DNA of 61,779 nucleotides from Spartobacteria bacterium (lineage in GTDB: Bacteria > Verrucomicrobiota > Verrucomicrobiia > Chthoniobacterales > UBA10450). Location of the stretch: positions 1 to 61,779 of the forward strand of contig PMTM01000016.1 of assembly GCA_003167365.1 (NCBI GenBank). The letters are read 5' to 3'. The translations under genes were made by a program, and so were the position numbers. Shown here piece after piece: positions 18,142 to 58,463 of the stretch (the stretch's first letter is position 1; each line of letters opens with the position of its first letter). A model generated the notes under the pieces. The model saw only the letters and a list, made by a program, of their open reading frames with translations, had not been told where the DNA came from and ran no database searches.

Positions 18142-18235
18142 GGTTGAGAGTTCGTAGTTGAGAGTTGAGAGTCCAAGCTTGCCAACTCAACCCTCAACCC
18201 TCAACTCCGAAAGCTTTCGCGAGCGAGGCTCTCAA
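18142..18235. repeat. Heptameric inverted repeat between recN and the MBL gene
   Basis: TTGAGAG-type heptamers at 18143-18171 face their complements (CCCTCAA/CTCAACT) at 18183-18206 and 18229-18235. The divergent start regions of recN and the metallo-beta-lactamase-fold gene both lie in it, giving both proteins possible SxLxTxxS-type N-terminal extensions. It could form a long hairpin. It is probably a mobile or slippage-derived repeat similar in style to those at 35.8 and 46 kb. Confidence 0.6.
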
Positions 18236-34740: not shown

Positions 34741-35787
34741 TTGAAAAGTTTATGGAAGCAGGGCGCGCAACCTTCTCTGGCCGTGGAAACCTTTTGCTTC
34801 ACCCGTCTGAGCTTATATGCTTCCGCGAAAGTGCCGATTCCTTTTTCGAAGAAAAGCCGGAGGAACGTCGTTCGCCAGGCGGCGGAAAATGGCGCTGAGA
34901 ATAAGCGCTCCACCCGTGTCCGCCTTCGCCTTCGCGCGGATTGGCATCGGCGCAATTTTCTCACCGAAGTTCTTATTCCCTCGCTCTTCACGAAGCGTTC
35001 TGGCGATCACACCCCGCCGAAATTTCCGGAAATTCGAAAAGGCGAGATTTGCATTACATGGATTGGGCACGCTTCTTTTTTGATTCAGACGCATGAAGTA
35101 AATGTATTGATCGATCCGAATTGGTCGATGTGGTTGAAGGTGATCAAGCGGCTGAAACAACCCGGTTTCGAGATTAAACATTTGCCCGAAATCGATTTCG
35201 TTTTGGTGACCCACGCGCACTTCGATCATCTCGATCGGCGTACGTTGCGCCGCGTGGCGGCCGATCAACCGATCGTTGTCCCGATCGGAGTGGGAAATCT
35301 CGTGCACGATCTTGGGTTTCAGATCGTGCACGAGCTTGATTACTGGCAGACGGTCAAGCTCGGTCCGATCGAGGTTTCTCTAACGCCTTGTTATCACTGG
35401 GGCGCGCGTTTTCTGGCCGATTCGCATCGCGGCTTCGGCGGCTTCGCCATCGCGATGGATGGCCGTACGATTTTTCATTGTGGCGACAGCGCGTTTTTTC
35501 CCGGTTTCAGAGAAATCGGCGAGCGTTATAAGATCGACGTCGCGTTGTTGCCCATCGGCGCGTACGACGCACCGACCGGCCGAGTGGTCCACATGAATCC
35601 GGAAGAAGCGGTGAGAACGTTCACCGAGCTTGGCGCGGAAACTTTGATCCCGATGCATTACGGAACTTTTCGTCTCGGCTTCGAACCAATGGATGAACCG
35701 CTCAAGCGCTTGCGAGCAGCCGCGCACACGCATGGAATCGAAGATAAAGTGCTCGTCATGACCGAAGGCAAGCCGGTCGTGTTATGA
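34741..35787 (+). CDS. MBL-fold hydrolase (UlaG/NAPE-PLD-like)
   Basis: A metallo-beta-lactamase-fold enzyme of about 290-348 residues. The domain starts at ICITWIGHASFLIQTHEVNV with IDPNWSMWL. The metal motif is VTHAHFDHLD; later ligands are in PCYHWGARFL, FHCGDSAFFPG and LIPMHYGTFRLG. The pattern matches NAPE-PLD/UlaG-like proteins, so phosphodiester or lactone hydrolysis is plausible. The start is uncertain: the listed start is a TTG, and residues 10-45 are encoded by the intergenic repeat (copy B), so the true start may be a non-ATG codon nearer residue 60. Confidence 0.8.
   Translation: MKSLWKQGAQPSLAVETFCFTRLSLYASAKVPIPFSKKSRRNVVRQAAENGAENKRSTRVRLRLRADWHRRNFLTEVLIPSLFTKRSGDHTPPKFPEIRKGEICITWIGHASFLIQTHEVNVLIDPNWSMWLKVIKRLKQPGFEIKHLPEIDFVLVTHAHFDHLDRRTLRRVAADQPIVVPIGVGNLVHDLGFQIVHELDYWQTVKLGPIEVSLTPCYHWGARFLADSHRGFGGFAIAMDGRTIFHCGDSAFFPGFREIGERYKIDVALLPIGAYDAPTGRVVHMNPEEAVRTFTELGAETLIPMHYGTFRLGFEPMDEPLKRLRAAAHTHGIEDKVLVMTEGKPVVL
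34783..34862. repeat. Copy B of the ~70-bp intergenic repeat
   Basis: Matches copy A (31.75 kb) through TATATGCTTCCGCGAAAGTG and CCGATTCCTTTTTC (about 34813-34847). It lies upstream of the conserved part of the MBL-fold gene and in its apparent 5' coding extension. Both copies precede a plus-strand gene. Confidence 0.7.
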
Positions 35788-35791
35788 TGAA

Positions 35792-35889
35792 GAAAACGCC
35801 GAACGCCGAACGTCGAACATCCAATCAGGGGAAATACAGAGCTTCTGAATTCGGCATTGGACGTTGGACGATGGACGTCCGGCGTTTTC
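35792..35889. mobile_element. 98-bp MITE-like element related to the four-helix-bundle element
   Basis: The left end GAAAACGCCGAACGCCGAAC (35792 on) and the right end (35842-35889, finishing GGACGTCCGGCGTTTTCC) are inverted copies built from CGAACGC-type heptamers. The right arm shares CTTCTGAATTCG plus the following inverted repeat with the right end of the element at 46.0-46.5 kb, which carries a gene. This copy has no gene, so it looks like an internally deleted derivative. It fills the gap between the MBL-fold gene and the YfhO-like gene. Confidence 0.65.
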
Positions 35890-35897
35890 CTTGTTAG

Positions 35898-38189
35898 ATG
35901 TCCGAGCCGCGCTCTACGCGTTCGGAAATAATCGGCGCAGTCATAGCCGGTTTGATAGTCGTCGCCTTTTCTTTGCTGCTGCTCTGGCATGACCCGCTTG
36001 TTTTCTGGAGCGACGATTATGAATTGTCGATCTTGCCCGTGTTCGCGGATGTCGCACGCAGTTGGAGCGAAGGTCACCTTCCTCTCTTAAGTCCATATTC
36101 GTGGATCTGCAGCAATCTCGCTGGTGAATTTCAATACGGAACATTCTCGATTTTTGTAAACGCAGCCGTCTTTCTAATCTGGAAATTCCCGCTGGCCTTC
36201 CCGCAACAAGCCGCCGCGCTTTCCATTACCCATCTTTTCGTGCTCGCGGCCGGCGCGTTCCTGCTCGCGCGCTCTCGCAGAATTTCCACTTCGCTGTCGA
36301 TTTTCGTTTCCCTCATCGCGGCGTTGAACGGTTGGATCATTTGTTGGGGCGCGACCGATTGGTTCGGCGCTCTCGGCGCGTTTGCCTGGCTGCCATGGGC
36401 GTGGTGGGGAGTCGAGCGCGCGCTGGATCGACAGCGAGGTCGCTGGCGATTCCTGTGGCCGGCGCCGTTTGTCTATCTGCTGGTTACCGGCGGTTTTCCT
36501 TACACCGTCGTCATGCTCGCGGTGCTGATCGCATGGCTTTCAATTAGGTCATTAGTCCAATCCCGAAGTTTCCTGCCGATCTTGCCGATGGCGTTTGGCA
36601 TTGCGCTGGGCTTCGGACTCTCCGCGCCGGCGTGGCTCGCGATCTTCGATTACCTCCACGGTTCCGCGCGCGAAGTCCAGCCGAGTTCCGCGCATTGGCA
36701 ATGGCTTGTTCCGCCATCGGCGTTGCCCGGGCTTATTCTTCCATGCTGGACAGCGAGGTGGGTCGACTTTTCCACGCGCTTGATACCGCACTCGGCGATC
36801 GAGTTGGCTTGCGGCCTCGTGCCGCTGCCCGCTCTTATCGCCGGATTATGGACCAAACATGCTACGCGTGTAGCAGCGCACGCAGCGAATTCTCCTAAAG
36901 CGGAATCCGGGCGACTACTTTGGAGAATTCGATGGGAGCTTGGCTTGCTCTTGCTTGTGCTCTTGCTCGCGATGTTGCCGACCGCCGGCATGTTCCGTTG
37001 GAGTTTCCGTTGGCTTCCGTTTTTTCATTTGATTCTCGCGCTCTGCGCCGCCGAAGCGCTACGCGATCTCGCTGGGCAGGGCCGGCAGCGACTCATCGCG
37101 CGGCCCGGCCTCCTCGCTTTCATCCTCATCGTGTTGATCGCAGTCACGATGTCGATTTTGCGAGCCGGCGGCTCTCATGCATTTCCGCTTACGTGGATTC
37201 TGCTGGGGATCGCCACGGTCTGGGCGTTGTCAGAATTTGGCAGGCGGGACGCCGCGCTGCGGCGTCCAGGACAGCGTGGCGCGTCGTTCCTACCTCGCGA
37301 GTGGATGCCGGCGTGCGTGACCTTTGTCGCGTTGCTCGTGACCTATCTTTGCGTTCCGCCGAATGTCGGCGTTCCGAAATACAACCTTTCTCAGGAGCTA
37401 ACGAAGTCCGCGCCGCTCGATCCGGAGCGGCTTTATTTGAGCGTTTATCCACCGCCCGAATTCAATTATCGCGTCGAATGGAAGCCCGCACCGATCGGTC
37501 AAATCCTTCGGCCGGGCAGCACATCGATGTGGGCAGGATTGCGCTTTGTAAATGGTTACAGCCCGATTCGTCCTGCAGGCATCGCGCGTCGCTTGAATTC
37601 ACAAATCCACGGTGAGCTCGATCCGCAAATCGCGGCACAGATGCTCGAAAAAGAAGCCGGCACGGAAGGCGAGCTCGCGCGCATGGGCGTCGACGGAATT
37701 ATTGTCTCGCGCGAATTCGATTTCGTTCCCAAACCGGATTCTGAGTGGAAGCTTACATTTTCGAACGATGAAGGGCGCGTCTATCATCGAATCGGCGAAT
37801 CGCTTCCACGAGTACGCTCGGTCACTTCGATTGATTCGCGCCCACATGAGGGATTTGCCGCCGCGACAATTTTACGAGTTAACGATTCACGAAATCGCAT
37901 CGAGATGGATGTCGATGTACCGAGCCAGGGCGGACCGGCCTTGTTGGTTTTTTCGCGTCCGTTTTTCCACGGTTATCAAGCGCGGCTCAATAACCAAAAT
38001 CTTCGCGTTGATTCTTATCGAGGATTGTTTCCAATGGTGGAAGTGCCTGCGGGAACGCACGCGGAGCTTATCCTAAGTTATCGACCCTCGTGGCTAATGT
38101 ACGGAGCGGCATTATCTGCGGTGAGTTGCGTGATCTTGCTCGTTGGATTGTTAGCTGCGCTTCGGAACATGCGCGCGATGGCGCTGTAG
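35898..38189 (+). CDS. YfhO-like polytopic membrane protein (GT-C type)
   Basis: A 763-residue integral membrane protein with about twelve hydrophobic helices and an extracytoplasmic C-terminal domain. The N-terminal loop WSDDYELSILPVF carries the acidic residues typical of GT-C lipid-linked sugar transferases, and EFQYGTFSIFVN with WGATDWFGALGAFAWLPWAW fits YfhO proteins, some of which glycosylate lipoteichoic acids. The C-terminal part ends with a soluble beta domain and a final helix. A perfect palindrome (37248-37266) and another short one near 36858 sit in frame within loop regions, suggesting captured repeat DNA. Substrate unknown. Confidence 0.78.
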   Translation: MSEPRSTRSEIIGAVIAGLIVVAFSLLLLWHDPLVFWSDDYELSILPVFADVARSWSEGHLPLLSPYSWICSNLAGEFQYGTFSIFVNAAVFLIWKFPLAFPQQAAALSITHLFVLAAGAFLLARSRRISTSLSIFVSLIAALNGWIICWGATDWFGALGAFAWLPWAWWGVERALDRQRGRWRFLWPAPFVYLLVTGGFPYTVVMLAVLIAWLSIRSLVQSRSFLPILPMAFGIALGFGLSAPAWLAIFDYLHGSAREVQPSSAHWQWLVPPSALPGLILPCWTARWVDFSTRLIPHSAIELACGLVPLPALIAGLWTKHATRVAAHAANSPKAESGRLLWRIRWELGLLLLVLLLAMLPTAGMFRWSFRWLPFFHLILALCAAEALRDLAGQGRQRLIARPGLLAFILIVLIAVTMSILRAGGSHAFPLTWILLGIATVWALSEFGRRDAALRRPGQRGASFLPREWMPACVTFVALLVTYLCVPPNVGVPKYNLSQELTKSAPLDPERLYLSVYPPPEFNYRVEWKPAPIGQILRPGSTSMWAGLRFVNGYSPIRPAGIARRLNSQIHGELDPQIAAQMLEKEAGTEGELARMGVDGIIVSREFDFVPKPDSEWKLTFSNDEGRVYHRIGESLPRVRSVTSIDSRPHEGFAAATILRVNDSRNRIEMDVDVPSQGGPALLVFSRPFFHGYQARLNNQNLRVDSYRGLFPMVEVPAGTHAELILSYRPSWLMYGAALSAVSCVILLVGLLAALRNMRAMAL
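36023..36034 (-). repeat. Dispersed 12-mer AAGATCGACAAT, copy in the YfhO-like gene
   Basis: Exact 12-mer, read as ELSILP from the plus-strand gene. Confidence 0.8.
37248..37266. repeat. Palindrome inside the YfhO-like coding region
   Basis: GACGCCGC-GCT-GCGGCGTC, perfect 8-base arms. It encodes the odd DAALRRP stretch in a loop between helices and resembles intergenic palindromes of this genome. Confidence 0.5.
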
Positions 38190-38215
38190 GGGCAGCCGTG
38201 TCGGCTGCGACATTT
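38190..38215. repeat. GCAGCCG palindromic intergenic repeat, copy 1
   Basis: GCAGCCG-TGT-CGGCTGC (38192-38208) directly after the YfhO-like stop; a close copy is at 52872-52888. It may serve as a terminator between the convergent genes. Confidence 0.5.
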
Positions 38216-38252
38216 GCTAAGCTGCAGGCGGCACGTCGACAATCACTCACAA

Positions 38253-39410
38253 TCAATAAACGTCGCGCTTGTAACGTTTGTCACTTTTGAGTTTTTCGAC
38301 GTACGCGTTCGCTTCGTCCAGCGTTTTGCCCCCCTGATTCTGCATGATTTTGCGCAAAGCAGCATCGACATCCTTGGCCATGCGCCGTGCGTCGCCGCAG
38401 ACGAAGAAGTGCGCGCCTTCGCCGTCCAGCCATTTCCAGATTTCGGCGCCGTTATCGAGCATGTGGTTTTGCACGTAGATCTTTTTTTCCTGGTCGCGCG
38501 ACCAGGCGCAATCGAGCCGCGTGAGCAGCCCGTCCTTCTTCATTTGGTCGAGTTCCTCCTTGTAAAAATAATTACAGCTCGCTTTCTGCGATCCGAAAAA
38601 GAGCCAGTTTCTTCCTTTCGCTCCGACTGCTTTTCGTTCCTGCAGATACGCGCGAAACGGCGCAACGCCTGTTCCCGGGCCGACCATGATGATTGGCGTG
38701 TTGCCATCCTCCGGCAGACGAAACTTTGACGTGTTCGGAAAGACTGGGATCGGCACGTTTTCCGCGCGCTCGGCCAGGAACGACGAACAGACGCCTTTGC
38801 GCATGCGGCCATGACTTTCGTAATGCACGACATCGATCGTGAAATGGACCTGCTCGGGATGCGCCTTTAGACTCGACGAAATCGAATACAAACGCGGCTG
38901 CAGCTTCGCGAGAAGATCGACAAGCTCCTGCGGCGCAAACTTGATCGAGGGATGCTCGATCAGAAAATCGATCACCTCCATGCCCCAAAGATATCGGTCG
39001 AGGTCCTCTTTGCGCGATGGATCGAGAAGTTCGTTCAACAACGGCGCAGCGCTCGCGCGTTCCGCGATCGCTTTCAAAAACTTCGGCGTGGTTTGGGTGA
39101 TGCGGCAATCGCGCAGCAACGCTTCGCGCAACGTCGTCGGCCCTTTCGGCCCGGTGACCTGTTCGTCGCCCTTTGCGCCGATCGTCTTAATGATTTCTTC
39201 GACCAGCGCTGGATCGTTCATCGGCCAAACGGTCATCGAATCGCCGACTTCGTAATTCAATCCCCAGCCTTTGAGATCGATCTCAAAGTGCCGCGTGTCT
39301 TTGTCCGAGCCCTCGCCGCAAAGGCTGCGATTGACGACGAGTTTCCCGGGAAACGGATTGGTGCGTGTGTAAGGCGAAGCGGGAGCCGCTGCCGTAGGAT
39401 TGTCCGCCAT
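38253..39410 (-). CDS. Sulfite reductase flavoprotein (CysJ-like) lacking the flavodoxin domain
   Basis: A diflavin-reductase-type protein of about 385 residues. It contains the FAD-binding domain with RLYSISSSLKAHPEQVHFTI (RxYS motif), GVCSSFLAERA, and the NADP-binding part MVGPGTGVAPFRAYLQERKA, NWLFFGSQKASCNYFYKEEL and FFVCGDARRMAKDVDAAL. The N-terminal FMN-flavodoxin domain of CysJ is absent, as in some short SorB/CysJ-like forms. It probably passes NADPH electrons directly to a ferredoxin. A ferredoxin gene lies 35 bases upstream on the same strand. Start at ATG 39410 is chosen; the in-frame extension to 39479 overlaps the ferredoxin gene. Confidence 0.85.
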   Translation of the reverse strand: MADNPTAAAPASPYTRTNPFPGKLVVNRSLCGEGSDKDTRHFEIDLKGWGLNYEVGDSMTVWPMNDPALVEEIIKTIGAKGDEQVTGPKGPTTLREALLRDCRITQTTPKFLKAIAERASAAPLLNELLDPSRKEDLDRYLWGMEVIDFLIEHPSIKFAPQELVDLLAKLQPRLYSISSSLKAHPEQVHFTIDVVHYESHGRMRKGVCSSFLAERAENVPIPVFPNTSKFRLPEDGNTPIIMVGPGTGVAPFRAYLQERKAVGAKGRNWLFFGSQKASCNYFYKEELDQMKKDGLLTRLDCAWSRDQEKKIYVQNHMLDNGAEIWKWLDGEGAHFFVCGDARRMAKDVDAALRKIMQNQGGKTLDEANAYVEKLKSDKRYKRDVY

Positions 39411-39445
39411 GACGATGTCGATCTTACCCGCGATGATCGGGTTCG

Positions 39446-39676
39446 CTAGCCGTCGTTGCCGATCGCCAGCGTCGGGCAAACTTCCATGGCGCGTTGCGCC
39501 GCGGCCTTTTCGTCGTCGGTTTCCGGCTGTTTAAAAAAGTAAACGGCCGTCTCGTCGTCGTTATATTTCAAAAGATTTGGGGCTTCTTCGAGACAAACGC
39601 GGCACGGCGTGCACGTCGTGTCCACATACCAAGCTCCAGGAGTGTTCTGAGGCTGTTTGCTTGCTTTGTCCGGCAT
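39446..39676 (-). CDS. Small single-cluster ferredoxin
   Basis: A 76-residue ferredoxin with TTCTPCRVCLEEAP (CxxCxxC) and a distant AMEVCPTLAI (CP), the ligand set of one [4Fe-4S] (or [3Fe-4S]) cluster. No second cluster motif is seen. It ends just ahead of the short CysJ-like reductase on the same strand and is likely its electron partner. Direct NADPH to FAD to ferredoxin flow would replace the missing FMN domain. The cell compartment is cytoplasmic. Confidence 0.85.
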   Translation of the reverse strand: MPDKASKQPQNTPGAWYVDTTCTPCRVCLEEAPNLLKYNDDETAVYFFKQPETDDEKAAAQRAMEVCPTLAIGNDG

Positions 39677-39736
39677 AGAATCTCTTACTACTAGCTTCGC
39701 TTAGGCGCGGCAACGTCTTTCTCACGGACTGGATCT

Positions 39737-42172
39737 CTACCCTGCCGGTTTGGACGTTCCTGTCAAAATAGGCCGGTCCTTCCCCGCGGCGGGCGCGAGC
39801 GAAGAGATCAGATGTTCGAAGCGCGCGTCTCCACGCAAGTCAGCCCAATCGGGGCTTAGTCTGAGATAGCCGTAATGATAGGCGTGCGGCATGTTTCGGA
39901 GCGATTCTAATTTGGTGACGGCTTCCTCCTTTTGGCCGCACCAAGCGCTGATCTGCGCGGAAAAAACCGCCAGATCCGCGGCGCCAAAGGCATCGCTGTT
40001 TTTATCGCTGGCTTGAAGAGTAATCGCCCGGCGTGCCTCATCGAGAGCTTGATCTTTGCTTCCAGTTGCAGCGTCTGCTTCCGCGAGCAACATCAGTCGA
40101 TAGGGTTGGTCAGGCCGCTTCCCGAAGCTTTCCGCCAGAAACGGACGCGCTTTGCTGAAAGCATCGCGCGCAACCGATTGGTCTCCCCGCGCCCGCGCAA
40201 TCAAACCCTCAAGCCTTTCGCGCGGGTAAAGTCCTTCTTCAAACTGCTTTCGAGGGTCGGCCGCAAGCGCGCGCTCCGCTTCGTCAAACTGTCCATCATC
40301 TAGGGCGGCCACGATCCGCGTGCGAGTTATTTTTTCGGCAAATTCCGGTTGCTTGGCCAACGCCTGACAAGCGGCACGAAGACCAGCCGTTGTCCCTTCT
40401 TCATTGAGCGCGAGTTGACCACGCTCCAGCGCGAACCAGTTCGGATTCAATCCGGCCGCCGTCGCTTGATCGAGAACGCGGCGCGCGTCGTCGTAACGTC
40501 GAAGAGATCGATAAGCATCTACGAGAAAATCAACCGTGTTGCGGTCTCGCGGGCTCAATTCATAAGCTTTTTCAAGATCGACGATCATATCTTGCCATCG
40601 CCCGTCGCGTTCCGCGATTACGCCGCTGAAAAATACGGTGGGCCAGCTGTTTGGAAGTTTTTCCTGTGCCAAAGCCAATTCCTGTCGCCCGCGATAATCG
40701 TCGCGATGTTCCGAGAAATAATAAACTGCCGCGGAAAAATGCGGCGGACCTTCGTTAGGACGAAGGTGCAACGCTTTTTGCACCGCCTCCTCGGCCAGAG
40801 CAAGCCGGTCCGGCGTGTGATCGTACATTTCGTACATGCTATTCTGCGCAATGGCGAGAATTGACCACGCCCCCGCAAAATCCGGATCGCGCCGAGTCGC
40901 TTCGGTGAGCAACGTTACCCCCTGAGCAGTGTTAGCTTGCAGATCGCTGTCATGAATCCCCTCGCTGAGTAACGAACTGGCTCGCAGAAAAAGATCGTAG
41001 GCCGCTACATCGTGGGTCGGCGCCTCTTCGATTTGTTGCTTTACGGCCGGCGACAAATGCGCTTTGAGTTGCTCCGCGATCTTTTTTGCGATCTCGCTTT
41101 GGATAGCGAAGACATCGTCAATCGGACGATCGTAATGCTCGGCCCTAAGATGCGCGTCCGTTCCAGCATCGATCAGTTGCGCGGTCACGCGCACGCGATT
41201 TCCCGCGCGTTGCACGCTGCCTTCCAACACGTGAGCGACCCGAAGCTTTCTTCCAATTTCGGGGATGTTATGTGTCGATCCACTTTTGAAATCCATCACA
41301 CTGGAGCGGCTGATTACTTTCAAATCGCCGATCTTGGCCAGGTCGGTGAGAATTTCATCCTGCATTCCGTCGGCGAAGTAAGCGTTCTGTTTGTCTTCGC
41401 TCATATTTTCGAACGGCAACACCGCGATGCTCTTGGCGGAAGCCGCGCCGGATTCCGGCGGTGTCTTCGCGCGCCAGAATCTCCAAAACCCGAAAGCCAA
41501 AAGCGTGATTAGCGTCACGGCTGAAATCATCATCCAGGCTCGGCTTACTCTGTTTGTCGGGGCAATTGCGCCCGCGGTGTTTTGCTCTCTCGCCTTCTTA
41601 ATTTTTTCCGGCAACACCGGATTTCCCAGTTCGTCGGTGTAAAAATTTACAATCTCGAGGCGGACGCCGTGCTTTACTTCGACCTCGCCTAGCGAATGCA
41701 AGTGCGACTGCCACTTTCGGTATTGACCCAAATCGTCGGCAACGCGTTTCGATAACAAGATGTGTCCGTGATCTCCGCAATCCATCACCCGTTGTGCCAT
41801 GTTGATGCCCGCGCCTGCTACGTTCATCCGGTCGTTCACGTCGGAAATTGCCTCGACCGGGCCGCTGTGAATTCCCATTCGAAGTCGCAGCTGCGAATGA
41901 TCTTTTAACGCCTTGCTAATTTCCATCGCGCAGCGGACGGGCGCATCGGTGCTGGTGAAGAAAGCGAGCGCCATTCCGTCACCGGTCGGAATTCGAATCA
42001 ATTTCCCGCTCGCTTCCGCGCTTTGGAATTGTTCCGTGCCGCGCACCAGTCGAAACAATTCCTGAATCAACTCGCTCTGCTCATCTACCAATTGTTTCGA
42101 GTATCCGACAATGTCCATGAACAATACGTGCGCGATCTCTAGTTCCGAATCAGGCCTTGCTTCGATCGACAT
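39737..42172 (-). CDS. Class III adenylate/guanylate cyclase with TolB-like and TPR domains
   Basis: An 811-residue multidomain signalling protein. The N-terminal cyclase homology domain has IAHVLFMDIVGYSKQLVDEQ, RIPTGDGMALAF and LRMGIHSGPVEAISDVNDR (about residues 10-180). A membrane helix (AWMMISAVTLITLLAFGFW, near 212-230) follows, then the TolB-like segment SIAVLPFENMSEDKQNAYFA and a tail of TPR repeats from about 380. Such proteins are common in Acidobacteriota, Verrucomicrobiota and rhizobia and may sense envelope state. It lies 16 bases downstream of the decaheme gene on the same strand, so may be co-transcribed. Confidence 0.88.
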   Translation of the reverse strand: MSIEARPDSELEIAHVLFMDIVGYSKQLVDEQSELIQELFRLVRGTEQFQSAEASGKLIRIPTGDGMALAFFTSTDAPVRCAMEISKALKDHSQLRLRMGIHSGPVEAISDVNDRMNVAGAGINMAQRVMDCGDHGHILLSKRVADDLGQYRKWQSHLHSLGEVEVKHGVRLEIVNFYTDELGNPVLPEKIKKAREQNTAGAIAPTNRVSRAWMMISAVTLITLLAFGFWRFWRAKTPPESGAASAKSIAVLPFENMSEDKQNAYFADGMQDEILTDLAKIGDLKVISRSSVMDFKSGSTHNIPEIGRKLRVAHVLEGSVQRAGNRVRVTAQLIDAGTDAHLRAEHYDRPIDDVFAIQSEIAKKIAEQLKAHLSPAVKQQIEEAPTHDVAAYDLFLRASSLLSEGIHDSDLQANTAQGVTLLTEATRRDPDFAGAWSILAIAQNSMYEMYDHTPDRLALAEEAVQKALHLRPNEGPPHFSAAVYYFSEHRDDYRGRQELALAQEKLPNSWPTVFFSGVIAERDGRWQDMIVDLEKAYELSPRDRNTVDFLVDAYRSLRRYDDARRVLDQATAAGLNPNWFALERGQLALNEEGTTAGLRAACQALAKQPEFAEKITRTRIVAALDDGQFDEAERALAADPRKQFEEGLYPRERLEGLIARARGDQSVARDAFSKARPFLAESFGKRPDQPYRLMLLAEADAATGSKDQALDEARRAITLQASDKNSDAFGAADLAVFSAQISAWCGQKEEAVTKLESLRNMPHAYHYGYLRLSPDWADLRGDARFEHLISSLAPAAGKDRPILTGTSKPAG

Positions 42173-42187
42173 GTTTCGGCTGTTTGG

Positions 42188-45100
42188 CTAGGGCGCTTTC
42201 CTTTTCGTGGACGTCTCGCTTGGGATCGCCGTAGGTTCAACCTCGGGTTCCGTTGGGAGCGTGATCGGAGTCGCGGACGGAATTGGCGTCGGGATCGGCG
42301 TCAAAGTCGTGCCGCTTTTGGTCGAGAGTACGCCGCCGGAAAGCGTCACGTCTTCCACGCGATACAATTCTCCCTTGCGTCGAACATCGACATCTTTTGC
42401 GTCGCTGATTTCCGCGCGGCGATAAAAACGTTCCATCTCATCGAGATGAAATGGCCGCGCCCCGCGACGCCCAAACACAACCGTTTGTCCACCCGTTTCA
42501 TCGACTACGCGATCGCGCTCGAGCCCGCGCGAAACGCAAATCGCTTCGCCTTTGGTGTGGTGAGTTGCGATCAACTTCGGATTCGGAAGGGGACTGAATC
42601 CCTGGGCACCTGGAACGGTGTCGGGCGAAATCAATTGCACGACGCGCAACCCATTTTTTCCATCGGCCACGAGTGCAAACTGCGAAGCGCTCACGCTCCC
42701 GATTTGCACCGCGCGGGTGTCGTTCAGCGCGCCGCCGGCGTTGAACATTTGATCGAGCCGAGGCGACTCAGGATCCTCAACATCGACAATGGCCAAACCT
42801 TCCGGACCGTTGGCGACGTAAGCATAAGTGCGCGCAACGTACAATCGTCCCGCGTTTCGCAGACGAACAGTTGCGCGCGGAAGAGGAATAGGCCGAGTCG
42901 GCTCAGTAAGATCGACAACCTTTAATCCGTCATCATCCGTGATGAATCCGTAGCGAAACTGAATGGCGATGCATCGTGGATTCTTCAGGAAATTTCCGGT
43001 GAGTTGTCCGGCGATGCGCGGATGCATCGGATCGGTTACATCGACAACGAAAAGTCCGCGCGGCGTCGTCATATAAAGCCGATGGCCGGCCGTCGCGACA
43101 AAGGTTGCACCGCTCAAGGCGCCGTCCGGATTAAAGACGACGTCCTTGTTCAGGAAATTGTCGGTGGGATTCCCGTTAACCAGCGTCGCGACATTGACGA
43201 CGACCAGGCCTTCTACCCGGTCGGAGACGAAAACGAATGCGTAGAAGGGATCGATCGGTTGCTCTTCGTTTTCCGGAATGTGCAGACGTGCCGGATCGAG
43301 CGCGAGCGTGCTTGGCAACGCTACCGAAGTTGCATAAGGCGTATGCACATACGTGCGCTGGCCAAGCGGCGAAACCGGCGAAGTGACAATGCGTTCTGAA
43401 AATCCTTTTTGATCGATGTTCGCCACATCGAAGACTTCGAACCCGCCGGGGCCGTTCGCGGTGTAAAGATATTCACCGCGCAGCACGATGTCCTGAATGT
43501 CTTTGCCGGAATGTTCGTACGCTTCCTGTAACTCACCGCCAAGATCGACATGTTTCTTGTAATTCGCCGGATACGCGATGCTGTGCAGGTGGCTTCCGAT
43601 GACTGCTTGCGGTTCATCTGCTTCCGTCCACACGACCGCGTGCAATCCCTCACGTCCTTCGCCGACATACGCGTAACGCCCGAAGAAATTCACCGTTCCG
43701 GTGCCGAAGCCGAGCAACTGTGTCATCCATGCGTTGTTGTCATTCTCCTTCGATAAATGGCAGTCCGTGCAAGTCTTGGTTGTTCCAACGCTGCTGGTGG
43801 TGTGCGGGAAATGCGGATTAAACGCCTGGCCGCTGTAACCTTCCGCGGAAAATGTTTGTTGCTGGGAGTAAACCCATTCGCGATTCGCATTCTGTGAACT
43901 GACCACGACCGCGCTGGACGATCGGATCACCGCCATCCGGTTCTTCTTCACCGTGCCGTCAATGCCGAGCATGAACACGTCGTCGCGCACGACTTGCGGA
44001 TTGTAAGTGGTGTAGTTCCGGTCGGTCACGCCTTCGAATTTGTTTTGCGGAACGCGCTGGTTCGCTTTCATCGGCAAATGGCAGCCGAAACAACTCGTCG
44101 CCCACGAGGTGTGGCAGATTTGGCAATCCATCGCCGAATTGTCATGCGCGAGTTTGACGCGCCGCTCTTCCGGCGTGGCCGGTATGACGCCGCCCCATTT
44201 GTCTTCGTCCCGTCGCAAAGTTTTGGCGTAAGCGGACTTCGGATTATAGTGCGCGGAAAGCGGATCGATCGTGTCCATCGTTTGCGGAATTTCCCAGCGA
44301 ACATCCGGCGACATGGTCGATTGCTGCCAGAGCATGTTGCCTTCCCAACTAAAGCGCGGTCCGAACGGCGTGTTGCTTGTGTGCAGCAAATCGATTTGTC
44401 CTGCGTTGCCGGAAGTAACCAGCGTGGGCCGTTGAGCGATCGTGCCGTGACAATCGATGCAATTGATCGTGGTCGCGTTGCGCGGCTCGCCGTAAAGCAT
44501 GCCGTTGCCGTGAACATCAACATCGAAATGGCAATCGGCGCACTGCATGCCCTTCGCCAGATGCACATCTTTCAAATGCACCGCTTTCGCGAATTTGTTC
44601 CGGTCGTCATTGTCGATCTTGTTGTCTTCGAGATCGAGCAAGTTGCCTTTGCGGTCGTGTTTGAAGATCGCGCGAAAGACCCAGCCGTGTCCGTGATAAT
44701 CGGCGAACTGCGTGTGCTTAAGTTGCGGGTTTAATTCCGCTACCCGATCGAGAAAATCTTTGTCGCCCCATAAACCGCGCGCCGCCGCCGCTTCCGGATT
44801 TTCCATTGTCGATCTTACAAGCTCGGCATCGGTCGGATCATGTTGCTCCTTCGGATACATGAACTCGCCGTCGGTCTCCTGGTCCCACCAGGTATAACCG
44901 AGATAGGGATTCACGAAGAGGTTTCCTTGATGCATGTGGCAATTCATGCATTGGCTTGAAGGAATCGAGCGCGTGAACTGATGCGTGATCGGATGTCCGC
45001 GCTCGGCTTTCGGAATCGTTTCGTCGGCGGTGAAACTCAGGCCTTGATGTCCGTACTTGCTCCACCAACCGGAGTTGGTCGGCGAGCGGTCGTTGGCATA

Positions 45101-46090
45101 CACAACGTGGCAGGCCGAGCATCCGCTCGATCTGTAATCGCCAGGGTGATCGTTTGATCCGAGGAAGCCAAGCAACGGATCGTGCAAGCGCGTCTTTTGC
45201 AGACCGAGAAAGACCGGATCAGTGCGATTGAGCGTGCCGAGGCCGCGCTCGGACAAACGTCGCTCCGGTTTGCCACCCGGTTCGTCGGCGGTTGGAAGAC
45301 CGAGCGAAAGTTGGTTGCGTCCGCCCTTCTCGAAAATGCGCAGAATATTTCCAGGGTTGCTCAAATTGAAACGAGGCAGCGGCTCAAGAAACGGAAGGAT
45401 GCCGTGCGTCCGTGTATCTTCACTACTCACCGGTGTGTAGTTATCCAAGCGTAGCGGAACGCCGTCCGCGCCGTAAGCTTGGCCGAAGCGGTAGTTCTTC
45501 AGATAGAAACCGCCGTTATTGTATAAAGCCGCGCCCCAGAGCATCGCGCCGTGATTCATCATGCTGTGATCGACGTTGCGAATGATGTCGCCATGACAAA
45601 GGCCGCACGATTGCTGGGCGACGCGCAGGTCGCCGGGATTCATGAAGCGAATGAATTCGGGCGACTCGTGATTGAGCCACGCGTTTGAGTTCGGCGGATT
45701 GGCGGATGTTTTCCAAAACTCTTTGTTCTTCGGCAAGATGTGCGCCTGCTCCTTGGTCAGGCCGCGCGCCGGGTTGCCGCCGTGGCAATCGGTGCACCCG
45801 AGCACGACGTTTTCCGATTTATGCATCGGCTCAACGCCCTTGTGACACTGCAAGCAGCCGATGCTCTTGGCGTTTGCTTCGGCTTGGGTTTGATCGATCC
45901 AATTACGCGGCGGTAAGGACGCGCGTGCGATTGTCGATATTGCAGCGGGGACGGAGGTCGGCGGGCCGTAGCCGGAAGTGGCGAGTTCTTGGGCAATTGC
46001 TGAACTCGAGATGCTGATAAGAAGCAGCAGAAAACGCCGAACGCCGAACGCCGAACGCCGAATGCCGAAGTCATACAACCACAAGTTCAT
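42188..46090 (-). CDS. Decaheme c-type cytochrome with LVIVD beta-propeller
   Basis: A 1300-residue exported cytochrome. Ten CxxCH haem motifs are visible: CLQCH, CTDCH, CGLCH, CSACH, CMNCH, CADCH, CIDCH, CQICH, CFGCH and CTDCH (roughly residues 70-780). From about 870 come six LVIVD-type repeats, for example GLFVVDVTDPMHPRIAGQL and GLAIVDVEDPESPRL, then a Pro/Thr-rich tail. The signal peptide is RRFLLLLISISSSAIAQ. Its basic start is encoded by the inverted repeat of the element at 46.03-46.54 kb. The start ATG overlaps the four-helix gene stop (ATGA). With the neighbouring barrel it may form an outer-membrane electron conduit; this is inference. Confidence 0.9.
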   Translation of the reverse strand: MNLWLYDFGIRRSAFGVRRFLLLLISISSSAIAQELATSGYGPPTSVPAAISTIARASLPPRNWIDQTQAEANAKSIGCLQCHKGVEPMHKSENVVLGCTDCHGGNPARGLTKEQAHILPKNKEFWKTSANPPNSNAWLNHESPEFIRFMNPGDLRVAQQSCGLCHGDIIRNVDHSMMNHGAMLWGAALYNNGGFYLKNYRFGQAYGADGVPLRLDNYTPVSSEDTRTHGILPFLEPLPRFNLSNPGNILRIFEKGGRNQLSLGLPTADEPGGKPERRLSERGLGTLNRTDPVFLGLQKTRLHDPLLGFLGSNDHPGDYRSSGCSACHVVYANDRSPTNSGWWSKYGHQGLSFTADETIPKAERGHPITHQFTRSIPSSQCMNCHMHQGNLFVNPYLGYTWWDQETDGEFMYPKEQHDPTDAELVRSTMENPEAAAARGLWGDKDFLDRVAELNPQLKHTQFADYHGHGWVFRAIFKHDRKGNLLDLEDNKIDNDDRNKFAKAVHLKDVHLAKGMQCADCHFDVDVHGNGMLYGEPRNATTINCIDCHGTIAQRPTLVTSGNAGQIDLLHTSNTPFGPRFSWEGNMLWQQSTMSPDVRWEIPQTMDTIDPLSAHYNPKSAYAKTLRRDEDKWGGVIPATPEERRVKLAHDNSAMDCQICHTSWATSCFGCHLPMKANQRVPQNKFEGVTDRNYTTYNPQVVRDDVFMLGIDGTVKKNRMAVIRSSSAVVVSSQNANREWVYSQQQTFSAEGYSGQAFNPHFPHTTSSVGTTKTCTDCHLSKENDNNAWMTQLLGFGTGTVNFFGRYAYVGEGREGLHAVVWTEADEPQAVIGSHLHSIAYPANYKKHVDLGGELQEAYEHSGKDIQDIVLRGEYLYTANGPGGFEVFDVANIDQKGFSERIVTSPVSPLGQRTYVHTPYATSVALPSTLALDPARLHIPENEEQPIDPFYAFVFVSDRVEGLVVVNVATLVNGNPTDNFLNKDVVFNPDGALSGATFVATAGHRLYMTTPRGLFVVDVTDPMHPRIAGQLTGNFLKNPRCIAIQFRYGFITDDDGLKVVDLTEPTRPIPLPRATVRLRNAGRLYVARTYAYVANGPEGLAIVDVEDPESPRLDQMFNAGGALNDTRAVQIGSVSASQFALVADGKNGLRVVQLISPDTVPGAQGFSPLPNPKLIATHHTKGEAICVSRGLERDRVVDETGGQTVVFGRRGARPFHLDEMERFYRRAEISDAKDVDVRRKGELYRVEDVTLSGGVLSTKSGTTLTPIPTPIPSATPITLPTEPEVEPTAIPSETSTKRKAP
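44609..44620 (-). repeat. Dispersed 12-mer AAGATCGACAAT, first copy in the decaheme gene
   Basis: Exact 12-mer, read as NKIDND. Two further 10-mers lie at 42908 and 43541 in the same gene. Confidence 0.8.
44805..44816 (-). repeat. Dispersed 12-mer AAGATCGACAAT, second copy in the decaheme gene
   Basis: Exact 12-mer, read as VRSTME, so a different frame from the copy 196 bases away. Confidence 0.8.
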
Positions 46091-46536
46091 TTTGCATTTT
46101 TCTCCGTGGTTCGGACGCTGGCGGAGAAAATTCTGATAAGCTCTTCGATTTCACTTAAATTTGCGCGCAATGCAGCGCTTTCAGCAAGTTGCAATCGTCC
46201 GATCAAGCGTAGCCAACGCCACGTTTCGCGCAGTTCTTTCAGGCAAATACGCAACTTGTGCAGAAAATCTTTACGAGATTCCGCTGCTTCCACTTCGCCA
46301 TGATTTGCGAGAGGCGAAGTGCCGCAACGGAGCAGCTGTCCGGCAATATGATTGCCCGCCTTTGTGTTTGGTAACGAGTCGGCCAACTGAACGATGCTCG
46401 CCGTGAATTCTAGAAGCCGCTCTTCGAGATCGTACTTTGGTCGCCGACTCCCTGCATAATTGCCATCGGGTGTCTCCGCCACGTACCCACTTCTGAATTC
46501 GAGATTGGGCGTTCGGCGTTGGGCGTTCGGCATTTT
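46030..46536 (-). mobile_element. Four-helix-bundle (IVS-type) element with heptameric inverted-repeat ends
   Basis: The left end (46030-46069) is GAAAACGCCGAACGCCGAAC continuing in CGAACGC heptamers. The right end (46490-46536) is the inverse, GTTCGGCGTTGGGCGTTCGG then CATTTTC. Between them lies one gene for a four-helix-bundle protein of the 23S rRNA intervening-sequence family. In rRNA genes such elements fold by their ends and are removed by RNase III. Here it sits inside a protein operon, and both its own gene and the decaheme gene start within its repeats. A gene-less relative lies at 35792-35889. Confidence 0.7.
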
Positions 46537-46542
46537 CTTCAT
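46087..46542 (-). CDS. Four-helix-bundle protein (23S rRNA intervening-sequence/S23 family)
   Basis: A 151-residue protein. The conserved family pattern starts with KYDLEERLLEFTASIVQLAD and continues LPNTKAGNHIAGQLLRCGTS, EAAESRKDFLHKLRICLKEL and RETWRWLRLIGRLQLA, the four amphipathic helices of the IVP fold. Relatives form basic pentamers and include the Avd accessory protein of retroelements. The first 15 residues (KKMPNAQRRTPNLEF) are encoded by the inverted repeat. Start ATG follows the barrel gene's TAA directly and its TGA overlaps the decaheme ATG, so it is translated as part of that operon. Molecular role unknown. Confidence 0.85.
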   Translation of the reverse strand: MKKMPNAQRRTPNLEFRSGYVAETPDGNYAGSRRPKYDLEERLLEFTASIVQLADSLPNTKAGNHIAGQLLRCGTSPLANHGEVEAAESRKDFLHKLRICLKELRETWRWLRLIGRLQLAESAALRANLSEIEELIRIFSASVRTTEKNAK

Positions 46543-48765
46543 TTAGTAGGTCAGCGTCAGCGTCACGATTCCGCTGTAGAGAAAATCATCCACGTGTCCG
46601 GGAGACGGGCCTGGATAACCCGGCACCGGTGTCGTATTCGCACGGTAAATGTCCTTGTAGCCTTGGCCCGGCACGAAAAATCCAGCGCCCGCGCTGACAA
46701 TAATATTTTCGATGAGTAACGGCCGCCATTGAAAGCCGAGGCTGCAATCGAGTCCAAGATTATTGCTGGCGTGATTAGTAAAGAGCACTTGCTCAGTGAC
46801 CGCGGTGTCGGCCGTCCAGACGTAGTTCACATTCAGGAAGCCCTTGAGCTTTGGCGTCACATCTGCGTCGAGACCGTAACCGACAATGACCGCGCCCGGA
46901 TTGACAAAATTTGATTGGCCTTCCGTTTTACTCGTGCGGAAATCAGGCACCAAACTGTCGGGCTGCTTAAAGTTCACGGACGTGCCGGCGAGATTGAAGC
47001 CTTGATGCACGTAAAAGCTAAACGGGCCGCCGAAGAAAAACGGATGATCTAAAACCGTATCGAAGCCGGTAGCGTGCGAATTGCGTGGATTGTCATCACC
47101 GCTCGCGTAAAAGACCGATAACTTGTGCCGCATCCAATTTTTATCGATGGAAAGCTCAAGTGCGGCCATCTGCGCGCTGATCTCCACGGGTCGCCCGGCG
47201 ATCCCATTGAAGCTGTCTTCACCAAAGACCTGATAAAAAGCGTGATCGATATTCAGCCAGCCGATGTGTCCGTCGCCCGTCCAGCCAATGTAGTACGCTT
47301 GCACGTAATGATCGCGCACGTCGCCGATCGGCGCCGGCCGCGTGATGAAACCGTTCTTGTCGTAGTGCTGGCTGTCGCCGTCGAAATTGGCAAGGAAATT
47401 AAGCTGGCCGGTGTAACCTTTCCAAATCAAATCCTGACGATAAACATTCGCGACATAAACCTGCTGGTCGCGTCGTTCGTTAATCTCATTTAAATCCGAA
47501 TACGTGTCCTTCTCGAGCATGTCGAAGGCGGCAAGGTTGTATTGCCAGCGGTTGTCGTCGTAGTTGCCGAAGATGCGCGCGCCGAGATTCGTGTCGTCGA
47601 AAATGAAACCGCGGAAGTCGCTTACGAATGGTTGAATGCCGACGCGCGAGGAGATGAAATCGTAATTGTTCGACAAATCGCGGATGTGGATTTCGGCGAA
47701 CGCTTCCTGCAATGAGAAGAATTCCTTTTCGCGCGTCGTCCCGTTTTGTGGATTGGGATTCACGACGTTGTTCTCCTGCACGTCGATGTAGTTGTGATTG
47801 TAAACGCCTAACAAACGCACCGCCCATTCCACCGGCTTGAAGGCGGTCTCTCCTTTGAAAAGATCGACACCGATCGAGAAATCGTTCGATGCAAGAATCT
47901 GTTCGCTTCGTCCGAAAAATTCGGAGCTGTTCGGTTGATTCGCGCTCACACCGCTCGGAGTCGGCAAGCGGCGCGCGTCGAATTGAGAGAAATCGCTGGC
48001 CGTGACGTTGAGAAAAATGTCCTGGCCATAAATCGGCGCATCGCCTTTGAACAAGCTTTGCAGATAAGGATGCCAATACTTTAATGTGCCGGACTGATAC
48101 GCGGTTTCGGTGGAGGGATCGGCATAACGCTTCCATCGCCCGAAGCCAATGAACCAGCGATTCGGCACCGGCTCCGAGTCGGGCAACGCGCCGATTCCAT
48201 TCGCCGATTCCGGATAGGTTTCGTATTCGAGCTTGCGCCGGCGCGGAACAACTTCGCGCACGCCTTTGCGCGGAAGCTGCAACGAACGCGGTAATGCTTC
48301 TTCGCCATACTCCGGAACCTGCGGCAGGATCGGTGGGAAAAGATCGGGCGGCGCTTCCGGCTCGGTCTGGTTACGCGCGCCGGGATCTGGATTGAACTGC
48401 GAAGGCGACAACGGCCCTTCGTCGTAGGCGTCGTTTTGCGCGACAACATCGACAGTTGCGAAAGTCACATCGTGTGGAAGCTCGACGACTGGCGAAGCGA
48501 TAGCGATCGCGCGCGGAAGTTCCACAATTGGTGAAGGCAAAGCCGTGTCACGCGGAAGCTCGACAATTGGTGAGGTGAGAGTCACGTCGCGTGGAAGTTC
48601 GACGATCGGAGAAACGGGACCCAACTCGACGATCGGAAAGGAGGAACTTGAACCGACTAGCTGTATCGGCGCGCCATTGATGTCAAAAAAAAACAATAGC
48701 CCGGCTAGGGGCGCGACTTTCCGGCGCAAAATCGCGCCGGTGACACACTGAGTTGACCAGCGCAT
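46543..48765 (-). CDS. Large outer-membrane beta-barrel (porin) of the cytochrome operon
   Basis: A protein of about 740 residues. The ATG at 48765 gives a signal-like start (MRWSTQCV then APLAGLLFFF). Next come four 13-residue tandem units of the form SPIVELPRDVTLT (encoded at 48457-48612), a Pro-rich linker, then many alternating aromatic strands from about residue 200. It ends in VTLTLTY, a typical barrel C-terminus. It is first in an operon with the four-helix protein and the decaheme cytochrome, so it may house that cytochrome in the outer membrane, as in porin-cytochrome conduits. No haem motif is in this protein. The frame is open to 48870. Confidence 0.75.
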   Translation of the reverse strand: MRWSTQCVTGAILRRKVAPLAGLLFFFDINGAPIQLVGSSSSFPIVELGPVSPIVELPRDVTLTSPIVELPRDTALPSPIVELPRAIAIASPVVELPHDVTFATVDVVAQNDAYDEGPLSPSQFNPDPGARNQTEPEAPPDLFPPILPQVPEYGEEALPRSLQLPRKGVREVVPRRRKLEYETYPESANGIGALPDSEPVPNRWFIGFGRWKRYADPSTETAYQSGTLKYWHPYLQSLFKGDAPIYGQDIFLNVTASDFSQFDARRLPTPSGVSANQPNSSEFFGRSEQILASNDFSIGVDLFKGETAFKPVEWAVRLLGVYNHNYIDVQENNVVNPNPQNGTTREKEFFSLQEAFAEIHIRDLSNNYDFISSRVGIQPFVSDFRGFIFDDTNLGARIFGNYDDNRWQYNLAAFDMLEKDTYSDLNEINERRDQQVYVANVYRQDLIWKGYTGQLNFLANFDGDSQHYDKNGFITRPAPIGDVRDHYVQAYYIGWTGDGHIGWLNIDHAFYQVFGEDSFNGIAGRPVEISAQMAALELSIDKNWMRHKLSVFYASGDDNPRNSHATGFDTVLDHPFFFGGPFSFYVHQGFNLAGTSVNFKQPDSLVPDFRTSKTEGQSNFVNPGAVIVGYGLDADVTPKLKGFLNVNYVWTADTAVTEQVLFTNHASNNLGLDCSLGFQWRPLLIENIIVSAGAGFFVPGQGYKDIYRANTTPVPGYPGPSPGHVDDFLYSGIVTLTLTY
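48457..48612 (-). repeat. Four 39-bp in-frame tandem repeats in the barrel gene
   Basis: Encodes SPIVELPRDVTLT, SPIVELPRDTALP, SPIVELPRAIAIA and SPVVELPHDVTFA in a row, preceded by a partial unit (FPIVELGPV). Copy number may vary between strains. The units lie directly after the signal peptide, so would be periplasmic. Confidence 0.8.
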
Positions 48766-48832
48766 GGGAGGGCGAGGATGCCGGAAAATGCCTCCTATTG
48801 GCAAGCCTAACGGCACCGGCGTCTGCCCGGGG

Positions 48833-48844
48833 AAGATCGACAAT
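48833..48844 (+). repeat. Dispersed 12-mer AAGATCGACAAT, intergenic copy
   Basis: Exact 12-mer between the divergent barrel and HbpS-like genes. Confidence 0.8.
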
Positions 48845-48900
48845 CGCTTTTTGGCTATTTTGCGTGGCAATCCGCTTGGGATTTGATAATCCCGTTACCG

Positions 48901-58357: not shown

Positions 58358-58463
58358 TTGCCACCGCTCGCCGGGCTTTCGAAAGCATTTAGCGTTTAGC
58401 GGTTAGCTCCGAAGGGTTCGCGAGATGAGTTGTGGAGGGGTTGATCGGGACGTTGCAGAGTGA

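Follow-up and report, generated by a model that had tools for sequence, protein, structure and literature searches.

An IVP-family gene between inverted heptamer arrays in a decaheme cytochrome operon of a Spartobacteria bacterium: a candidate REPIN-like element

The decaheme cytochrome operon of a Spartobacteria bacterium (GenBank assembly GCA_003167365.1, contig PMTM01000016.1) contains a four-helix-bundle gene of the IVP family that is set between two inverted arrays of tandem heptamers, at positions 46029–46538 of the window, by which we mean the whole stretch of 61,779 nt that was analysed. With a probability of roughly 0.62, we read this block as a non-rRNA member of the IVS/IVP class of elements, REPIN-like in its organization, with the IVP gene in the position of the transposase, and domesticated at this locus. 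IVP genes in many phyla show the same inverted-heptamer layout, with a heptamer that differs from element to element, and the arms of the window's element belong to a dispersed repeat family of about 44 nt that also forms hairpins lacking an IVP gene, as REPs form REPINs. Neither of these two points was part of the initial annotation, which had been made from the letters of the window.

Table 1. Positions of the operon genes, the arms of the element and the IVP-less hairpin in the window (arms named relative to transcription).
Feature	Position	Strand	Remarks
775-aa upstream gene	46543..48870	-	no Pfam or NCBIfam match; barrel-like by inference only
Four-helix-bundle gene, 151 aa	46087..46542	-	PF05635 23S_rRNA_IVP / TIGR02436
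Decaheme c-type cytochrome gene, 1300 aa	42188..46090	-	exactly ten CxxCH motifs; LVIVD repeat
5' arm, tandem heptamers	46494..46538	.	four-helix gene codons 2-17; copy of dispersed ~44-nt repeat
3' arm, 5' arm inverted	46029..46073	.	decaheme codons 6-21, signal peptide n-region
IVP-less hairpin, 104 nt, two inverted repeat copies	35786-35890	+	directly after stop of gene 34741-35787

The three genes of the operon (Table 1) are read from the minus strand in the order 775-aa gene, four-helix gene and decaheme gene, with stop and start codons that abut or overlap at both joints. The stop codon of the 775-aa gene abuts the ATG of the four-helix gene, and the stop of the four-helix gene forms an ATGA overlap with the decaheme start, just as the initial annotation had it. 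The four-helix ORF reaches 48.1 bits against PF05635 (cut-off 33.8) and 76.1 bits against TIGR02436 (cut-off 24). These two were its only profile matches above cut-off, with no transposase and no Y1 HUH (RAYT) among them; a catalytic domain, whether of a transposase, an RT or another enzyme, was likewise not seen in the element.

The arms measure 45 nt each, stand 420 nt apart around the four-helix gene and are 87% complementary. They are built of tandem CGAACGC-type units (AACGCCG/AACGCCC in one arm, GGCGTTC in the opposite one), which agrees with the inverted heptamer ends proposed earlier, the coordinates being correct within a few bases. Their score of 30.0 compares with a best value of 13.5 among 500 dinucleotide shuffles of the region, and the only other period-7 inverted pair in the window is found at 35794-35878. 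Two short period-7 arrays, at 18184-18208 (CAACCCT) and 58384-58408 (TTAGCGG), are without a clear inverted partner. The decaheme ATG (46088-46090) lies inside the element, as had been proposed, and the n-region of the decaheme signal peptide is indeed coded by the array; the arm extends over codons 6-21 (YDFGIRRSAFGVRRFL). The ATG of the four-helix gene, whose start had been placed in the repeat, stands just outside the arm.

Genomes of the family were searched for orthologous decaheme operons, yielding 21 in which the joint could be read, counting the window's own. A four-helix element with matched arms is present at the joint in 14 of them, a heptamer hairpin without an IVP gene in three (L053, L057, L064) and other short repeats in one (L037). 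The remaining three (L045, L050, L055) keep the same gene order across a clean joint, which bears out the view of an inserted IVP-family element; in L045 this joint is a plain TGATG overlap, and the decaheme signal peptide is MKRVALIFVLVARVLLAQ. The initial annotation implied that the decaheme N-terminus should not recur in relatives lacking the repeats, and the N-terminus does differ between operons with and without the element. Operons that carry the element have an array-coded n-region whatever the heptamer class (RRSAFGVRR; LNVGRWTLDVGR; LGVGRWALGVGR), and in those with an IVP-less hairpin heptamers even code for the hydrophobic core (WSLVLGAS, WGLAFGAS). The two arms co-vary between operons (AACGTCC with GGACGTT, AACGCCC with GGGCGTT), to the point that an alternating order of variants in L040 is mirrored exactly in the opposite arm, and arm pairing has a median of 29 within an operon versus 19 across operons.

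The four-helix protein shows dN/dS values of 0.02 and 0.08 in the two ortholog pairs below saturation, which identifies the 151-aa reading frame as a gene under selection. Since the element is kept in 14 of the 21 operons, is under purifying selection and has its array in the signal peptide, the window's copy is best read as old and domesticated, behaving as a fixed gene whose array has been taken into the cytochrome. An alternative explanation assigns the four-helix protein a present role as host regulator of this operon, exerted by translational coupling or hairpin binding, with mobility irrelevant today. Retention of the gene in most of these operons, the strong purifying selection and the stop/start overlaps on both sides of the gene would all fit such a role. 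However, the element is absent in G011, G093 and G045, where the decaheme genes are nonetheless long and intact, and in G054, G039 and G042 IVP-less hairpins take its place; we consider a present-day regulator unlikely.

Strict vertical inheritance at the decaheme locus was considered and is not adopted, because the gene trees partly disagree (EVEA-type IVP, two g7 genomes), at low support for the IVP tree. Two operons differ in structure. The decaheme start region and array of L054 (G062) are tandemly doubled in one reading frame, giving near-identical signal peptide regions. The four-helix gene of L046 (G007) is without its 5' array and N-terminus, and the 3' array coding for the decaheme n-region is retained.

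IVP genes are common beyond this locus: 80 of the family's 83 genomes have them, often 5-10 each, as do 221 of the 289 genomes sampled from the phylum. Genome contigs were also scanned, which provided 80 IVP loci with record titles naming many phyla (Verrucomicrobiota, Acidobacteriota, Bacillota, Bacteroidota, Pseudomonadota, Planctomycetota, Patescibacteria, Chloroflexota, Desulfobacterota and Ignavibacteriota, among others), and the 76 with enough flank were analysed; this and the other locus sets consist of best IVP matches, mostly from draft genomes, and are phylogenetically non-independent. The best complementarity between flanks had a median of 19 over the 76 loci, compared with 7.5 when the two flanks came from different elements and 8.5 for flanks at a distance of 900 nt, and the between-element 99th percentile was exceeded by 53 of 76 IVP loci and by none of 62 distant controls. 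Scores above 12 were reached at 147 of 181 IVP loci versus 3 of 175 control ORFs from the same stretches. Identity at lag 7 amounted to 0.402 near IVP genes and 0.259 far away (76 loci), with lags 14, 21 and 28 giving the only further peaks; lag 7 was the best of lags 4-12 in 60 of the 76 loci. The heptamer is specific to each element (GTTGAGA, GTGACGA, GCTTAAA, TAGTGGC, CGGGGAC and others); its variants often stand in mirrored order on the other side of the IVP gene.

Matching of the arms through base composition alone is excluded by the dinucleotide shuffles, the between-element pairs, the distant flanks and the control ORFs. A phage-borne element was also considered and set aside, only 22 loci having been found on viral contigs (2.9 million). 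The recurrence of the layout around relatives in about ten phyla suggests that these are tiny genetic elements of a class that has received little notice.

In the window's own genome, a 14-nt heptamer pattern has 29 matches at no more than one mismatch, versus 3 for the reversed control. Many of these matches are a single repeat of about 44 nt, roughly GAAGAAAACGYCSAACGCCSAACGYCCAATCTCGAATTCAGAAG, and its copies have a common descent, since their non-heptamer ends are shared as well. It occurs in more than ten other places of the genome, singly or as inverted pairs without an IVP gene (the 104-nt hairpin of Table 1, L025, L033), and the IVP cassette has two copies of it, inverted to each other, as its ends. 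Within the genus g7, it is G051 and G056 that have the most dispersed GTGACGA arrays, and these are the two genomes that match an IVP with GTGACGA arms, so that a link between arrays and IVP is suggestive only. Another REPIN-like family in the genus is a repeat of about 35 nt, scattered over many places and often arranged as inverted pairs with some 25 nt in between (L071:3250-3300; G051, G018, G053).

Hairpins that stand without an IVP gene could mean that heptamer hairpins are self-standing, born by slippage or REP-like and moved by another factor such as RAYT, with IVP a frequent passenger. Such hairpins do occupy the same slots as elements (L053, L057/L064, L348, G054, G045), the IVP has no catalytic motif, and heptamer arrays have been described without reference to IVP (PMC4679880, PMC4692102). 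Yet arms are found at about 80% of the 181 IVP loci versus 2% of control genes, which is unexpected for a random passenger, and the purifying selection on the IVP of the window's locus also speaks against this explanation. We regard it as doubtful and prefer to see the IVP gene as a part of the element.

The elements sit in sense at stop/start junctions of co-directional genes. With genes predicted by a simple ORF caller, 141 elements have close neighbours on either side; 112 of these are flanked by two co-directional genes and share their sense, and 4 are antisense to such a pair. The L071 element stands between a TAA stop and an ATG; at the same site, G006 and G055 have unrelated hairpins of about 80 nt, and G054 has an IVP-less heptamer hairpin. 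The joint of L075/L080, compared over 31 species, contains an IVP element in ten, an IVP-less heptamer hairpin in one, and otherwise several unrelated hairpin repeats or nothing (G020). Comparison of G013 with G020 at the L075 site displays an insertion with the 3-nt ATT repeated at its ends, in this single case. The L236 site is a bare ATGA stop/start overlap in G015, a 37-nt array in G046, an IVP-less hairpin of the same class in G045 and an IVP element in G049 and G022.

Elements can also be compared between sites. L236 (G049) and L241 (G047) are 85.6% identical over 564 nt, beginning and ending at the outer arm ends, and the flanks compared display no protein similarity; the G047 copy is situated in the same broader neighbourhood, so the move may have been a local one. 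L076 and L220 agree only from one array to just past the other. Empty sites and the finding of one element at two unrelated sites suggest mobility, and movement of the element is likely. The joint accepts many alternative insertions and thus appears to be a tolerant slot, so that position alone is no proof of targeting, and gain is hard to tell from loss because relatives at several sites carry different hairpins and not nothing. In the genus g4, hairpins with the same heptamer and without IVP are found in the same slot, so that the IVP may enter or leave existing hairpins.

Copying of the arms from the target was considered, as the outermost heptamer equals the start of the downstream gene in L071 (ATGTCACT) and at an ATGAACT site. 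However, a single orthologous site accounts for most of this effect among 82 loci, and such copying is not claimed. One stop/start joint (L326-L365; G020 and g5 genomes) holds many unrelated hairpin repeats depending on the species, e.g. GTAGGGCGCGACCG... and TGTCATTCCGAGCGAAGTCGAGGAATC, and operon joints hence seem to be a general landing slot for small repeats. A second, non-heptamer family of hairpin repeats of about 146-166 nt (L075:492-657 in G013) is dispersed in G013 and G041, with some twenty partial matches in G013; it is cleanly absent from G020, with GATT repeated at its ends.

The initial annotation had placed emphasis on insertion in 23S rRNA genes and on removal by RNase III, and the data point elsewhere. 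None of 40 IVP loci tested, which came from many phyla, overlaps an rRNA family, an Rfam scan of positions 35600-46700 gave no match, and the window's element lies between two protein genes, not in 23S rRNA. An element acting at the RNA level, as in 23S IVSs, would have its arms form a stem in the mRNA that is cut by RNase III; the pairing would be selected, and cleavage would separate or regulate the flanking messages. The window's mRNA is indeed predicted to fold with the arms paired (z = -5.55), elements lie in sense within operons, and the arms at the decaheme locus pair better within than across operons. However, selection on an RNA duplex would give more G.U than A.C mismatches, and the arms of 136 elements contain 137 and 148, respectively (p = 0.55), which leaves the 23S/RNase III reading weak. 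A cut in the stem would furthermore fall inside decaheme codons 6-21 and sever the ATG from the remaining message. The arms are symmetric, as expected of a DNA-level element, and carry no RNA-strand signature. An RNA-level element therefore appears quite improbable to us.

For the preferred reading of a REPIN-like IVS/IVP element, we hypothesize that spreading takes place at the DNA level, with the arms as boundaries of the moving unit. The IVP protein, placed relative to the arms as RAYT is relative to REPs, may be the element's own nucleic-acid-binding factor, acting on arrays or hairpins, and would work together with host (or RAYT- or RT-type) machinery. More tentatively, and at somewhat less than even odds, such an IVP-REPIN may represent a very widespread minimal class of mobile element, whose protein recognises or maintains the heptamer ends and spreads IVP-less hairpins into stop/start junctions, with 23S IVSs as one special landing site. 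If this were true, the heptamer repeats of Xanthomonas, Nostoc and Beggiatoaceae would be IVP footprints. PF05635 is an abundant uncharacterised family named after rRNA insertions, and its genes between inverted heptamer arrays outside rRNA link the family to heptameric repeats and to rRNA IVSs, both unexplained. At the decaheme locus, moreover, a repeat element repeatedly supplies the signal peptide of a multiheme cytochrome.

REP and REPIN sequences with RAYT (TnpA_REP) are short dispersed extragenic repeats, single or in inverted pairs, with the gene located between two inverted copies. The window's element resembles them in its dispersed short repeat, its inverted pairs and its single gene flanked by inverted copies. 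It differs in that the flanked gene belongs to PF05635 and does not encode a Y1 HUH transposase, and in that the repeat is a heptamer array. Solved structures of the IVP family exist, deposited as uncharacterised proteins: a PDB sequence search with profile A1, considered also in relation to the Avd protein of diversity-generating retroelements, which come with a linked reverse transcriptase, TR and VR, returned only 2GSC (XCC0516; E 2e-40) and 2RLD (E 4e-24). The window's protein is a subtype apart from these two (TSPLANHGE instead of VSIPSNIAEG).

Heptameric tandem repeats are known from several bacteria, namely Beggiatoaceae (TAACTGA; PMC4679880), Xanthomonas (GGGAATC; PMC4692102) and Nostoc (GGGGA(C/T)T; PMC4692102). 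They share with the window's repeat the period of 7 and a dispersed, intergenic location, often just before start codons. The Xanthomonas repeats often form convergent inverted pairs, as here, with 70 paired cases in one genome, and the authors remark on the absence of literature (PMC4692102). The passages considered tie no four-helix gene to the repeats (PMC4679880, PMC4692102), and our full-text search, with subscription papers outside its scope, found no literature linking heptamer arrays to IVP or four-helix genes.

A further related system is that of the 23S rRNA IVSs with an S23p/IVP ORF (Leptospira, Coxiella, Xanthomonas), which share the protein family, a similar size (about 430-510 nt) and complementary ends that form one long stem. 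A mobile nature, or an origin as remnants of transposition, has been proposed for IVS elements, and in Coxiella the IVS contains, like the window's element, tandem heptamers, there as three GACAGAT units ahead of the S23p ORF (PMC4990558). IVP ORFs have also been noted in rRNA insertions of CPR bacteria (PMC11270868). Unlike the 23S IVSs, the window's element displays no RNA-strand pairing signature and stands between two protein genes, with heptamer arms on both sides that double as coding sequence.
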